Shown here: positions 3,671 through 8,611 of the stretch, piece by piece
Numbering within the stretch: the first letter of the stretch is position 1
How the letters are laid out: each line of letters opens with the position of its first letter
Assembly: GCA_900168235.1 (NCBI GenBank)
Contig: FUZG01000002.1
Location: forward strand, 372,001-436,000
Direction: 5' to 3'
DNA from: Lachnospiraceae bacterium
GTDB lineage: Bacteria > Bacillota > Clostridia > Lachnospirales > Lachnospiraceae
DNA: 64,000 nucleotides
Notes under the pieces: model-generated
Seen by the model: only the letters and a program-made list of their open reading frames with translations
The model's database searches: none
Told to the model about the DNA's origin: nothing
Position numbers and translations under genes: made by a program

Positions 3671-4525
3671 ATGGGACTGTTTGACGGCATGGATAAAATG
3701 GGACTGAAGCAGATTTCTCAGGATGAGATCTTTAAGGCTGAAGAGACGGCAAAAAAGCCGGCGGCAGCTCAGGAGATAAAGGCTAAACCGCAGATGACTG
3801 AGGAAAATTACCTGCTTGAACGCACTATGGATTGCCCTGTATGCGGATCAAAGTTCAAGGTTAAGGCTGTTAAGAGCGGAAGAGTAAGAAGGGTTGGACA
3901 GGATAAAGACCTGAGACCTCGCTTTGAGCAGCTTGATACTGCGAAGTATGATGTATGCGTGTGCTCTGAGTGCGGCTATGCCGCCATGAGTCGTGATTTC
4001 AAGAACATCATGGATCCTCAGAAGAAGCTGGTTCTTGAGAATATCAAGCCCGGATTCTCATACGAGGAGCCTGCAACTCTTTATACCTATGATGACGCTA
4101 TCAAGAGGTATCAGATCGCGCTGGTAAATGCTATCACATGCGGAAGAAAAGACTCTGAAAAGGCATATCTCTGTCTCAAGATGGGTTGGGTCATCAGAGG
4201 TAAGAGTGAAAGTCTCGATCCGGAAGCTGAGGACTACGAGGCACAGCTCAAGAAGTGCAAGGAAGATGAAGACGAAGCTCTTAAGCTCGCGTACGAAGGC
4301 TTCATCGCAGCCCGTATGAAGGAAGAGTTCCCGATGGCAGGCATGGAACAGACTACACTGGACTATCTGTTAGCTGTTCTGTCCATGAGGTTTGATAATT
4401 ATGTTAATGCAGCGAAACTGGTTACAGGTATTCTCGGAAGCAGACTCGCAGGAGCAAAGATCAAAGACATGGCCCGCGATCTGAAGGAAGAGATCATCGC
4501 TCACCAGAAAGAAAAAGAAGAGTAA
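3671..4525 (+). CDS. DUF2225 family zinc-ribbon protein
   Basis: A 284-residue cytoplasmic protein of the DUF2225 type. The zinc-ribbon-like N-terminal region carries C55-x-x-C58 and C98-x-x-C101, with a further C96. The C-terminal two thirds is a helical, TPR-like region rich in Lys and Glu (KRYQIALVNAITCGRKDSEK and onward), which suggests a protein-binding scaffold. The function of the family is unknown to me. AGGAGG stands 8 bases before the ATG. It follows glnS by 55 bases without a terminator, so it is probably co-transcribed. A bidirectional terminator follows. Confidence 0.85.
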   Translation: MGLFDGMDKMGLKQISQDEIFKAEETAKKPAAAQEIKAKPQMTEENYLLERTMDCPVCGSKFKVKAVKSGRVRRVGQDKDLRPRFEQLDTAKYDVCVCSECGYAAMSRDFKNIMDPQKKLVLENIKPGFSYEEPATLYTYDDAIKRYQIALVNAITCGRKDSEKAYLCLKMGWVIRGKSESLDPEAEDYEAQLKKCKEDEDEALKLAYEGFIAARMKEEFPMAGMEQTTLDYLLAVLSMRFDNYVNAAKLVTGILGSRLAGAKIKDMARDLKEEIIAHQKEKEE

Positions 4526-5130: not shown

Positions 5131-6189
5131 TTGAGATATATAATGGGCAGACTTTTGATGGTAATGGTGATCCTGTCGGCGGTGATGCTTACGGGATGTA
5201 ATAATGGAGAGAGGAAAGAGATAGTGCTCACTTCGGAGTTTGACGAGGGTGAAGTACTGCGGATAGATACAGAAAAATGTATGGTGCCGGAGCTCATGGT
5301 TTATATGAACTCCTCTGCAGGGTCTTATGAGAAAGCCTTCGGTGACGGTATCTGGGAAAGAAATCTGGATGGCGTGACACTTGGGAATGAGCTGAAAGAT
5401 ACCACGCTTGCACGTATAGCCCAGGTGAAGTCAATGAATCTCCTGGCGGCAGACTGGGGTGTAAATCTGGATACCACGGAGCTGGCAGAAGTAAAAAAGG
5501 CGGCGGCAAAATATATGGACGGCATCTCTGATACTGAGAAAACTAAGCTCGGCATCAACGGAGAGATGATCGAAAATATGTACACCGAATATGCCATTGC
5601 TGATAAACTTTATCACCAGATCACGAGAAACGTAAATCCTGAGATCAGCGATGACGAAGCACGTACCATCACAGTAAAGTGTCTTCTCATCCGTAACTGC
5701 AGCGTGGATGGTGAAGGAAATGTTACACCCTATAGTGATGAAGAAAAAAAACAGGCAGAGGCAAAAGCACAGGAAGTGCTGGAGCGTGCAAAAGAAGGCG
5801 CAGATTTTGACAGTCTTGTTGACGAATATAATGAAGACTCTGTCAGCACCTATACATTCGGTAAAGGAACAATGCCGGAAAGCTTTGAAAAAGCTGCATT
5901 TAATCTCGATACAGACCAGATAAGCGATGTGGTCGAGACAGATTACGGCTATCATATCATCAAGTGTATCAGTACCTTTAACGAAGAAGAGACAGATGCA
6001 AATAAAGAACGGATCGTAAAAGTAAGAAAGAGCGAAGCATTTAACAGGGTATATAACGATTTTGCGAAATCGATCCACGTAATGCTGAACCGTCCGCTTT
6101 GGGAGCAGATAAAGCTCGATCCCGATACGGAAGTGTCAGAAAAAGGCTTCTTTGAAGTCTATGACGAAGTTTTCGGAACAGAAGAATAA
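5131..6189 (+). CDS. Parvulin-type peptidyl-prolyl isomerase lipoprotein (PrsA/SurA-like)
   Basis: Probable extracytoplasmic foldase. The TTG start at 5131 is chosen because GAGG lies 6 bases before it and because it yields a normal lipoprotein signal: basic N-terminus, hydrophobic core, then LTGC with the lipidated Cys at residue 23. After a helical chaperone-like region of about 170 residues comes a rotamase domain (about residues 180-280) ending in DYGYHIIKC, the parvulin/PpiC signature. Length 352 aa resembles PrsA. The long in-frame extension up to 4981 would put 50 residues before the signal and overlaps the promoter, so it is rejected. A terminator follows. Confidence 0.85.
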   Translation: MRYIMGRLLMVMVILSAVMLTGCNNGERKEIVLTSEFDEGEVLRIDTEKCMVPELMVYMNSSAGSYEKAFGDGIWERNLDGVTLGNELKDTTLARIAQVKSMNLLAADWGVNLDTTELAEVKKAAAKYMDGISDTEKTKLGINGEMIENMYTEYAIADKLYHQITRNVNPEISDDEARTITVKCLLIRNCSVDGEGNVTPYSDEEKKQAEAKAQEVLERAKEGADFDSLVDEYNEDSVSTYTFGKGTMPESFEKAAFNLDTDQISDVVETDYGYHIIKCISTFNEEETDANKERIVKVRKSEAFNRVYNDFAKSIHVMLNRPLWEQIKLDPDTEVSEKGFFEVYDEVFGTEE

Positions 6190-6200
6190 GCAAGAAAAAG

Positions 6201-6238
6201 ACCGCTCGGTGAGCTGAAATAAGCCCATCGGGCGGTTT
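6201..6238 (+). terminator. Intrinsic terminator
   Basis: ACCGCTCGGTG (6201-6211) pairs with CATCGGGCGGT (6226-6236) over 11 bp with two G-U pairs; the T-run is short. Confidence 0.65.
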
Positions 6239-6257
6239 CGCTGTATAGAAAAATGTA

Positions 6258-6419
6258 TTTATTAGGTTACTGTTCAGAGGCAAACTGCGCACTACGCTGC
6301 GCAGTTATGCCCCAATAACGAAGGCGAGCCATTGGATTTTGCCCATCGCCAGAGGCGATTTAATTGGCAAAATCCGTTACTGGAGCGAGCTGTAAGCGAG
6401 TGAACAGTAACTTTATTAG
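6258..6419. mobile_element. MITE-like non-coding insertion with 8-bp target duplication
   Basis: A 146-bp element (6266-6411) starts with GTTACTGTTCA and ends with the exact inverted copy TGAACAGTAAC. It is flanked on both sides, without any gap, by the 8-bp direct repeat TTTATTAG (6258-6265 and 6412-6419), the hallmark of a transposition target duplication. Inside are two further palindromes: AACTGCGCA/TGCGCAGTT (6283-6306) and GGATTTTGCC/GGCAAAATCC (6334-6343 and 6366-6375), the latter enclosing ATCGCC/GGCGAT. No open frame exists. It would be moved by a transposase encoded elsewhere. Eight-base duplications are seen with several IS families (for example IS66, IS256 and IS1595); which one applies cannot be decided here. 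Confidence 0.8.
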
Positions 6420-6442
6420 CACTCTTTATAAATGAGTGCTAA
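6416..6442 (+). promoter_or_regulatory. CIRCE operator (HrcA binding site)
   Basis: TTAGCACTC, nine bases, GAGTGCTAA: a perfect match to the CIRCE consensus. It lies 8 bases before the htpG -35 box, so htpG is predicted to be repressed by HrcA and induced by heat. Its first four bases are shared with the target duplication of the adjacent insertion. Confidence 0.96.
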
Positions 6443-6449
6443 AAATTCA

Positions 6450-6478
6450 TTGACTTTTGTTATGCACCGAATTAAAAT
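6450..6478 (+). promoter_or_regulatory. htpG promoter
   Basis: TTGACT (6450-6455), 17 bases, TAAAAT (6473-6478): a strong vegetative promoter directly after CIRCE. Confidence 0.85.
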
Positions 6479-6565
6479 TATTTTTGTTGAGGCTTAAACC
6501 TAAGTCATTTGTTTATTATTCCCGTAAAAACGGGATATGAGATAGAGAAAGGATGTGTAGATTCA

Positions 6566-8611
6566 ATGGCAGAAAGACATGGAAATCTTTCAATCAGCAG
6601 TGAGAATATTTTCCCTATTATCAAAAAGTGGATGTACTCCGATCAGGATATCTTTATCCGTGAGCTCGTAAGTAACGGATGCGACGCAATCACAAAGCTT
6701 AAAAAGCTCGAGATGATGGGCGAGTACCAGGCTCCGGCAGAAGAGACAGACGGAACAGAGGGCGCAGGACTTAAAGGCCGCGTTGATGTTCAGGTCGATA
6801 ATAAGGCAAAGACTCTGAAGTTTATCGATAACGGTATCGGTATGACCATGGATGAAGTTGATAAGTACATCAACCAGATCGCTTTCTCCGGTGCTACAGA
6901 GTTCCTTAATAAGTATAAGGACAAGGCTGATAACGACCAGATCATTGGTCATTTCGGACTTGGCTTCTACTCCGCTTTCATGGTAGCAGATAAAGTAACC
7001 ATCGACACACTTTCATTCCAGAAGGATGCGACTCCGGTTCACTGGGAGTGCGAGGGCGCAGGCACAACATTTGATATGAAGGACGGCGACCGCACAAGAG
7101 TCGGTACAGAGATCACCCTTCATCTTAATGAAGACAGCCTGAAATACTGCAACGAGTACGGTGTACGTGAGGTTCTTGATAAGTACTGTTCATTCATGCC
7201 TACCGAGATTTATCTCACAGATGTAAACGCTGAGCCGCCTAAGCCGACAAAGGATAAGGACGGAAACGAAGTTCCGCCGGCAGCTCCTGCACCTATAAAT
7301 GATATCCATCCTCTTTGGACAAAGACTCCGAAGGACTGCACAGAGGATGAGTACAAGGCATTTTACCGCAAGGTATTCCAGGATTACAGAGAGCCGCTCT
7401 TCTGGATCCACCTCAATATGGACTATCCGTTTAACCTGAAGGGAATCCTTTACTTCCCGAAGATCAACATCGAGTATGAGTCCATCGAAGGAAAGATCAA
7501 GCTCTACAACAATCAGGTATTCGTAGCTGATAATATCAAGGAAGTAATTCCTGAGTTCCTGATGCTCCTTAAGGGTGTCATCGATTGTCCGGATCTTCCG
7601 CTCAACGTTTCCAGAAGCGCGCTGCAGAATGACGGATTCGTTACAAAGATCTCTGACTACATTACAAAGAAGATCGCAGAGAAGCTTTCCGGCATGTGCA
7701 AGACTGATAAGGAAAACTACGAGAAGTACTGGGATGACATCGCTCCTTTCGTAAAGTACGGCTATCTCAGAAATGCTAAGTTTGCTGAAAAGATCAACGA
7801 TTTCATTCTTTTCCATGACATCAACGGCAAGTACCTCACACTTCCTGAGTGCCTTGAGCTTCCGACAGAGGCTGCTGAGGAGACAGAGGCAGTTGATACC
7901 GAGACCGGAGAAAAGGTTGAGGCAGAGGTTGTGACTGATGACGCCGACAAGAAGGACGAAGCTGAGGAAGAGAAGAAAGAGAAGAAAGAGACCATCGTTT
8001 ACTATGTAACCGATGAAAAGCAGCAGGGTCAGTACATCAATATGTTCAAGCAGGCAAAGATGGATGCCGTTATCCTGAAGAACAATATTGATACTCCTTT
8101 CATGCAGCAGCTCGAGGCAAAGAACCAGGGCGTTAAGTTCCTTCGTATCGATTCTAACGTGACCGATGCTATGGCTTCAAAGGAGTCAAAGAAGGAGCAG
8201 GAGACATTCGGAAAGGCTGCTGAGGCAGTTCAGAAGCTCCTCCGCAAGACTCTGAAGAAAGAGAAGCTGGATGTAAAGATCCAGAAGCTCAAGAATAAGA
8301 AGGTTGCTTCCATGATCACAAGATCAGAGGAAACACGCCGTATGCAGGATATGATGAGAATGTATTCTGCAGGCGACAGCTCCATGAGCGATATGTTCAA
8401 GGATGATGACGGACAGACACTTGTCCTCAATGCAAATCACCCTCTTGTAAAGAACATCATGGAGAAGCCTGAGGACGAAAATGCAAAGCTTGTAAGCGAG
8501 CAGCTTTATGATCTGGCTCTCCTTGCAAATAAGCAGCTTTCACCTGAGGAAATGACAGCATTTATCGAGCGCTCCAATAAGATCATGATGTCTTTCAGCG
8601 GAATTGCGTAA
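6566..8611 (+). CDS. htpG: Molecular chaperone HtpG (Hsp90)
   Basis: ATP-dependent Hsp90 chaperone of the cytoplasm. The start at 6566 gives the family N-terminus MAERHGNLSISSENIF; the frame upstream lacks homologous sequence. GHKL ATPase motifs are visible: ELVSNGCDAITK, DNGIGM and GHFGLGFYSAFM, followed by the middle-domain block PLNVSRSALQ. Length is 681 aa, longer than E. coli HtpG (624); the excess includes a Pro-rich insert (KDGNEVPPAAPAP) and a highly charged Glu/Lys stretch around residues 450-485, similar to the charged linker of eukaryotic Hsp90 but in another place. It is monocistronic, between the CIRCE-controlled promoter and a terminator. Confidence 0.96.
   Translation: MAERHGNLSISSENIFPIIKKWMYSDQDIFIRELVSNGCDAITKLKKLEMMGEYQAPAEETDGTEGAGLKGRVDVQVDNKAKTLKFIDNGIGMTMDEVDKYINQIAFSGATEFLNKYKDKADNDQIIGHFGLGFYSAFMVADKVTIDTLSFQKDATPVHWECEGAGTTFDMKDGDRTRVGTEITLHLNEDSLKYCNEYGVREVLDKYCSFMPTEIYLTDVNAEPPKPTKDKDGNEVPPAAPAPINDIHPLWTKTPKDCTEDEYKAFYRKVFQDYREPLFWIHLNMDYPFNLKGILYFPKINIEYESIEGKIKLYNNQVFVADNIKEVIPEFLMLLKGVIDCPDLPLNVSRSALQNDGFVTKISDYITKKIAEKLSGMCKTDKENYEKYWDDIAPFVKYGYLRNAKFAEKINDFILFHDINGKYLTLPECLELPTEAAEETEAVDTETGEKVEAEVVTDDADKKDEAEEEKKEKKETIVYYVTDEKQQGQYINMFKQAKMDAVILKNNIDTPFMQQLEAKNQGVKFLRIDSNVTDAMASKESKKEQETFGKAAEAVQKLLRKTLKKEKLDVKIQKLKNKKVASMITRSEETRRMQDMMRMYSAGDSSMSDMFKDDDGQTLVLNANHPLVKNIMEKPEDENAKLVSEQLYDLALLANKQLSPEEMTAFIERSNKIMMSFSGIA

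Follow-up and report, generated by a model that had tools for sequence, protein, structure and literature searches.

The 146-bp element that lies 5' of htpG in the window, that is, in the whole 64,000-nucleotide stretch of Lachnospiraceae DNA analysed here, is best explained as a MITE that an IS66-type transposase with matching ends moves in trans, a reading to which we give a probability of roughly 0.87. The element is short, non-coding and bounded by TIRs; it occurs in dispersed copies with target duplications (TSDs); and its ends are common to autonomous elements of the genus. If this reading holds, a genus-wide, orphan-looking MITE family of the Lachnospiraceae would be tied to an IS66-type transposase.

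Structure and setting of the element

The features of the element and its surroundings are as follows.

6258..6265, no strand: left copy of the 8-bp TSD, TTTATTAG (from the sequence)
6266..6411, plus strand: MITE, 146 bp, one of 8 identical copies in the genome (from the sequence and a genome search)
6266..6276, plus strand: left TIR, GTTACTGTTCA (from the sequence)
6279..6311, no strand: internal hairpin 1, predicted; compensatory changes across lineages in the region
6334..6375, no strand: internal hairpin 2, predicted, GGATTTTGCC..GGCAAAATCC plus an inner stem; lineages differ here by compensatory changes
6376..6411, minus strand: right-end unit, 36 bp, imperfectly palindromic, with an inner arm similar to a second TIR
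6401..6411, minus strand: right TIR, TGAACAGTAAC (from the sequence)
6412..6419, no strand: right copy of the TSD TTTATTAG; CIRCE begins within it, sharing its last 4 bp
6416..6442, plus strand: CIRCE operator, TTAGCACTC-N9-GAGTGCTAA, intact
6450..6478, plus strand: promoter-like TTGACT-17-TAAAAT, 5' of htpG, intact (consensus match only)
6566..8611, plus strand: htpG (Hsp90 homologue), with protein matches in 46/48 genomes of the genus

As the initial annotation had it, the TIRs at 6266-6276 and 6401-6411 are perfect over 11 bp, and TTTATTAG stands on both sides of them. In 200,000 draws of a random 146-bp span from the window, the 8-bp borders matched exactly at a frequency of 2.5e-5; a match with one mismatch arises by chance at 4e-4. 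The coding capacity of the element is at most 48 codons, and of the ORFs of at least 80 aa a single one reaches into it, at the left end (6041-6292, minus strand). The downstream gene we take to be htpG, a name that comes from the initial annotation and not from a family search. For the TTGACT-17-TAAAAT pattern, about one chance match is expected in the region scanned. In the htpG leaders compared within the genus, window 6416-6478 included, CIRCE stands directly 5' of TTGACT, a -35-like box.

Copies and distribution of the family

The genome to which the window belongs (3.79 Mb, 28 contigs) holds 43 matches to the MITE, eight of which, counting the window copy, are identical over 146/146 positions. 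Copies were called two-ended when both ends were within two mismatches of the TIR and 80-230 bp apart, distinct loci listed for this genome being counted; among the 32 of these, the TSD is exact in 21, has one mismatch in 4 and two or more in 7, and the 21 exact TSDs are 21 different 8-mers. The initial annotation had proposed a search for further copies with different 8-bp duplications, and they are there; its description of a MITE-like, recent-looking insertion with a clean TSD and internal palindromes also holds. The element at one locus (L003) matches the window copy to 100%, yet the TSD there has at least two mismatches. Over all loci collected, 61/96 end pairs have an exact TSD and 10/96 a TSD with one mismatch, while the 25/96 with two or more mismatches include some chance or nested pairings and some decayed copies. 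The TIR motif GTWACWGTTCA itself is found 87 times in the window genome, as against 8 times for the reversed control pattern.

The family is present in 21/48 genomes of the genus and in 0/24 genomes from other families of the order. A scan of species genomes for exact 36-base matches returned 34 stretches, all of them titled Lachnospiraceae or Butyrivibrio; viral contigs gave 0 matches to one exact 25-bp stretch, and the MITE had no match in plasmid and phage collections. Insertion sites are AT-rich and long open frames are avoided: a stop-free frame of at least 150 codons is found at 18/69 insertion sites, against 77% of positions drawn at random from these flanks, and one of at least 100 codons at 29/69 sites, against 86% of such positions. 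A preference for hairpins as targets was considered and rejected, the 60-nt folding energy of the 69 sites being compared with that of 301 intergenic controls (p=0.73).

Two further observations concern the window genome. Six copies (L021-L024, L026 and L028) are 200-202-bp variants of the MITE with an additional internal stretch, and L023 and L024 have exact TSDs. L020 (contig C15) and L024 (C27) each sit in an apparent copy of one palindromic repeat, GTAAGGGTCAAAA and its inverse, which would be a further repeat family.

Ends shared with IS66-type elements

PF03050 is found in 20/48 genomes of the genus, where two kinds of element occur. The likely partner type of the MITE is 2.2-2.4 kb long, with GTTAC-type ends, a PF03050 transposase and 8-bp duplications. 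Elements of IS66 type with MITE-type ends include L126 (2193 bp, exact TSD GTTCATTT), L178 (2314 bp, exact TSD AGAGGATT) and L123 (G028:C14, 2136-6090; 3955 bp, exact TSD GCAACCCG), the last with additional open frames. The type-specific transposase has three matches each in G031 and G062, in copies that reach contig ends; one G031 copy, read across two contigs, has GAGCTATG outside both of its ends. The two G028 transposases score 70.8 and 74.3 bits against the PF03050 cut-off of 23.1, and those of G031, G062, G016 and G013 also lie above it. For NCBIfam NF033517, the partner transposases reach 125-173 bits, under the cut-off of 180. Six that were aligned have 534-587 residues. Against plasmids, the partner transposase matched 64 records, the best 10 of the 64 having 24-27% identity and carrying the annotation IS66 or simply transposase.

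In the four elements that were aligned for it, the transposase is preceded by a small ORF of 98-147 aa, in which DKR and DKEKK stretches are invariant and which had no NCBIfam match in the three cases tested. It is located as follows.

L126, 1685-1999: conserved small ORF
L123, 2298-2612: conserved small ORF
L175, 171-467: conserved small ORF
L178, 3529-3972: conserved small ORF

Remnants with MITE-type ends occur as well, of about 750 bp in G033 and about 680 bp in G063. In L123, the IS-sized part stops at an internal TIR at 4325, and open frames with no assigned function run from there to the outer end; it looks as if the transposase had skipped its own end and taken neighbouring DNA. In G031 (contig C8), an IS66-type element lies 10 bp from a MITE-type end (L264, 2231-2242).

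MITE and IS are alike at their ends only. In the best 40 matches compared, the termini agree exactly over 13-18 bp (a few over 18-22 bp at 91-94%), and these matches are located at MITE ends and at the ends of the IS or the internal TIR of L123. Over its left 13 bp, GTTACTGTTCAGA, the window element is identical to the end of a decayed G033 element of IS66 type, and over its right 13 bp to the end of the IS66-type elements of G028. The agreement extends to variants: a variant-ended MITE of G005 (L056) equals the IS of G013 over 18 bp, variant base included, and the variant-ended MITEs L020, L046 and L100 equal the G062 IS over 16 bp. Several IS families make 8-bp duplications, and the mover of the MITE might instead be an unrelated transposase with similar ends and the same length of duplication. 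That the window genome has no detected IS66 transposase would fit such a mover, but the exact identity of 13-18 bp with IS66-type elements of the genus, partly variant by variant, argues against it, and we consider it improbable.

The initial annotation placed the mobilising transposase outside the window, which for IS66 holds for the whole genome: we found 0 matches to PF03050 and 0 to the type-specific transposase alignment, a result limited by gaps and by two N-masked contigs (2330 and 1538 bp). The full IS with the same ends that it proposed to look for is found in the genus, in the IS66-type elements sharing 13-18 bp; in the window genome, no IS of this type was found. Single-ended copies in this genome were examined as relics of a full IS and rejected, the open frames round six of them, read by eye, being without partner transposase. 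G033, which is nearly closed (3 contigs), has more than 100 TIRs, but the matching transposase is present as fragments only. MITE matches occur in only 3/5 genomes with an intact partner element, and 18/21 MITE genomes lack one. Copy families of the MITE also occur in genomes in which only a broken matching transposase, or none, was found.

Another reading is that the same MITE can no longer move in this genome, an IS66-type transposase having been present, driven a burst and then been lost. The failure to find a transposase here and the fragments in the many-copied, nearly closed G033 favour this, while eight copies that are still identical and for the most part retain exact TSDs, and masked contigs and gaps that may conceal an IS, weigh against it; we rate it a serious possibility, somewhat short of even odds. 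It is compatible with mobilisation in trans by an IS66-type transposase and differs from it in the present tense only. The eight identical copies suggest recent activity.

At 146 bp, the element is too short for a transposase gene. In the mechanism that we propose, an IS66-type element with GTTACTGTTCA-type ends would supply a DDE transposase that binds both TIRs in trans and inserts the 146-bp unit into DNA that is AT-rich and mostly intergenic; an 8-bp staggered cut at the target would give rise to the TSD. Next to htpG, the copy leaves CIRCE and the promoter-like site intact. Observed are the copies, their TSDs, the empty site and the ends common to IS and MITE. We infer rather than observe trans-mobilisation, and the partner may have been lost from some genomes, because the window genome and G033 have no intact transposase, the overlap between partner and MITE genomes is partial, and the partner transposases fall under the NCBIfam cut-off.

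Comparison with known systems

Canonical IS66 elements have a tnpA-tnpB-tnpC set and GTAAGCG-type ends. The partner elements have the DDE_Tnp_IS66 domain and the 8-bp target duplication of the IS66 family, but in place of the canonical arrangement they combine a small ORF with the transposase and have ends of the GTTAC type; the single ORF stated for the ISBst12 group (PMC12898284) is not what they have either, given the additional ORF of 98-147 aa in the four elements aligned. Canonical-type IS66 elements do occur in the genus (L170, L172, L173 and L176), with GTAAGCG or GTAAACGG ends. L172 has ORFs of 132, 120 and 534 aa, which are presumably tnpA-, tnpB- and tnpC-like. These elements share the DDE_Tnp_IS66 domain and exact 8-bp duplications with the partner type, but are 2.7-2.8 kb long with other end sequences, and are therefore less likely to act on the MITE.

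ISDge4 belongs to the ISBst12 group of the IS66 family, with ends GTGACTACTCAGCA / GTAACTGCTCAGCA and one ORF for a 449-aa transposase (PMC12898284). It resembles the window element and its likely partner in its ends (compare GTTACTGTTCAGA), its 8-bp duplication and its IS66-family transposase; it differs in being autonomous with a single ORF, unlike the non-coding window element and unlike the likely partner, in which there is a second, small ORF of about 100 aa. The same paper terms the transposition mechanisms of the IS66 family insufficiently characterised (PMC12898284). The matched variant ends, compensating hairpins and minimal palindromes of 34-37 bp described here may offer natural substrates for studying what an IS66-type transposase requires.

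In Pseudomonas syringae, MITEPsy1 and MITEPsy2 are 100 and 228 bp long and are assigned to the families IS5? and Tn3, respectively; MITEPsy1 was shown to move, and MITEPsy2 carries the ends of a larger transposon (PMC3189936). They are short and non-coding like the window MITE, but differ from it in family, length and ends. The titles and abstracts that we searched, with subscription journals mostly outside their scope, held no IS66-derived MITE in Lachnospiraceae.

Internal hairpins and tiny palindromes

Across 48 distinct copies, the 29 consensus pairs of the predicted hairpins are paired in 97.5% of cases, against 92.7 in shuffles; 12/29 pairs are changed on both sides (5.0 in shuffles), as are 49 cells (9.2 in shuffles). 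The counts support conserved hairpin pairing in the MITE family, although the figures are not a probability, since related copies were compared and the alignment used for the counts had also yielded the structure.

The right-hand 36-bp unit of the window MITE is related to 37-bp palindromes of G028 and G006. Palindromes of 33-56 bp with MITE-type ends were found at 10 places in 7/48 genomes, with 0 for the reversed control. Two of the ten have exact TSDs, two have TSDs with 2 mismatches and six have at least 4; among these six, L231, L237 and L239 are one place in three genomes, as judged by their flanks, and L234 is part of a longer MITE. The same 37-mer, with two positions different, occurs at different sites in G028 and G006 with the exact duplications ACTCTGCC and CATTTTTC. 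Outside the palindrome scan, a 34-bp unit of G031 (L167) with the variant end GTAACTGTTCA has the exact duplication GCGGTGTA. The right end of a G033 MITE is a perfect 37-bp palindrome, and its sibling L067 is imperfect there. Five copies truncated to 36 bp were tested, and only L103 is suggestive, since the flanking 8-mers differ at 2, 3, 6, 6 and 7 of 8 positions.

It may be that perfecting the imperfect right-hand palindrome of the MITE yields a 37-bp palindrome bounded by two TIRs and that such units of 34-37 bp transpose, but we hold this tentatively and think it rather unlikely. Should it be true, mobile units of 34-37 bp would consist of nothing but two transposon ends; to our knowledge, they would be the smallest transposable units in bacteria. 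The choice is between transposition and deletion in place, with the tiny palindromes being longer copies that were shortened after insertion. Judged by the four G028 copies aligned, a deletion that joins the left end to the inner arm of the right end would yield the 37-mer of G028 with one base different.

The htpG site

The htpG leaders of G031 and G009 have the empty site, with a single target copy running into CIRCE. This agrees with the earlier claim that removing the element restores the leader before CIRCE, which the right TSD overlaps by 4 bp. Two outcomes named initially as telling against an insertion, a lack of further copies and relatives without an empty site, both failed to appear: copies exist, and G031 and G009 are empty. 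In G014, a MITE of its own abuts CIRCE at the same place as the window copy in the opposite orientation, with flanks ATTGCTAG / GTTGCTAG that are alike at 7/8 positions. The htpG DNA of G014, G031 and G009 is mutually 93-94% alike and 86-87% like that of the window genome. Because this likeness groups G014 with G031 and G009, and those two are empty, the simplest reading of these sequences is two independent insertions at one base pair beside CIRCE, in the window genome and in G014.

A general targeting of CIRCE, or a hot spot there, is not supported. CIRCE places were listed at 38 positions in 10 genomes, and 27 of the 38 were examined (22 plus 5, the latter including the window's); an abutting MITE was found only at htpG of the window and of G014, and at one place in G033 a TIR pair ends at a distance of 70 bp.

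A reading of the element as a regulatory or RNA feature under selection at htpG, and not as a parasite, draws on the hairpin pairing kept through compensatory change and on G014 having a second insertion at this place. Against it stand the copies dispersed at other sites, the empty sites in G031 and G009 and the opposite orientations of the two htpG insertions. Moreover, Rfam gave no match up to E=1 for window 6100-6600, and no promoter- or terminator-like patterns were found inside the element. We regard a selected htpG element as very improbable. Under mobilisation by an IS66-type transposase, the copy beside htpG probably has little effect on the gene.

The leader upstream of htpG also shows a second repeat family (L203 and L204): a further long inverted-repeat insert, GGGGGATGTAGTTATCTCTTG and its inverse, in G009, and an apparent remnant of that insert in G014.
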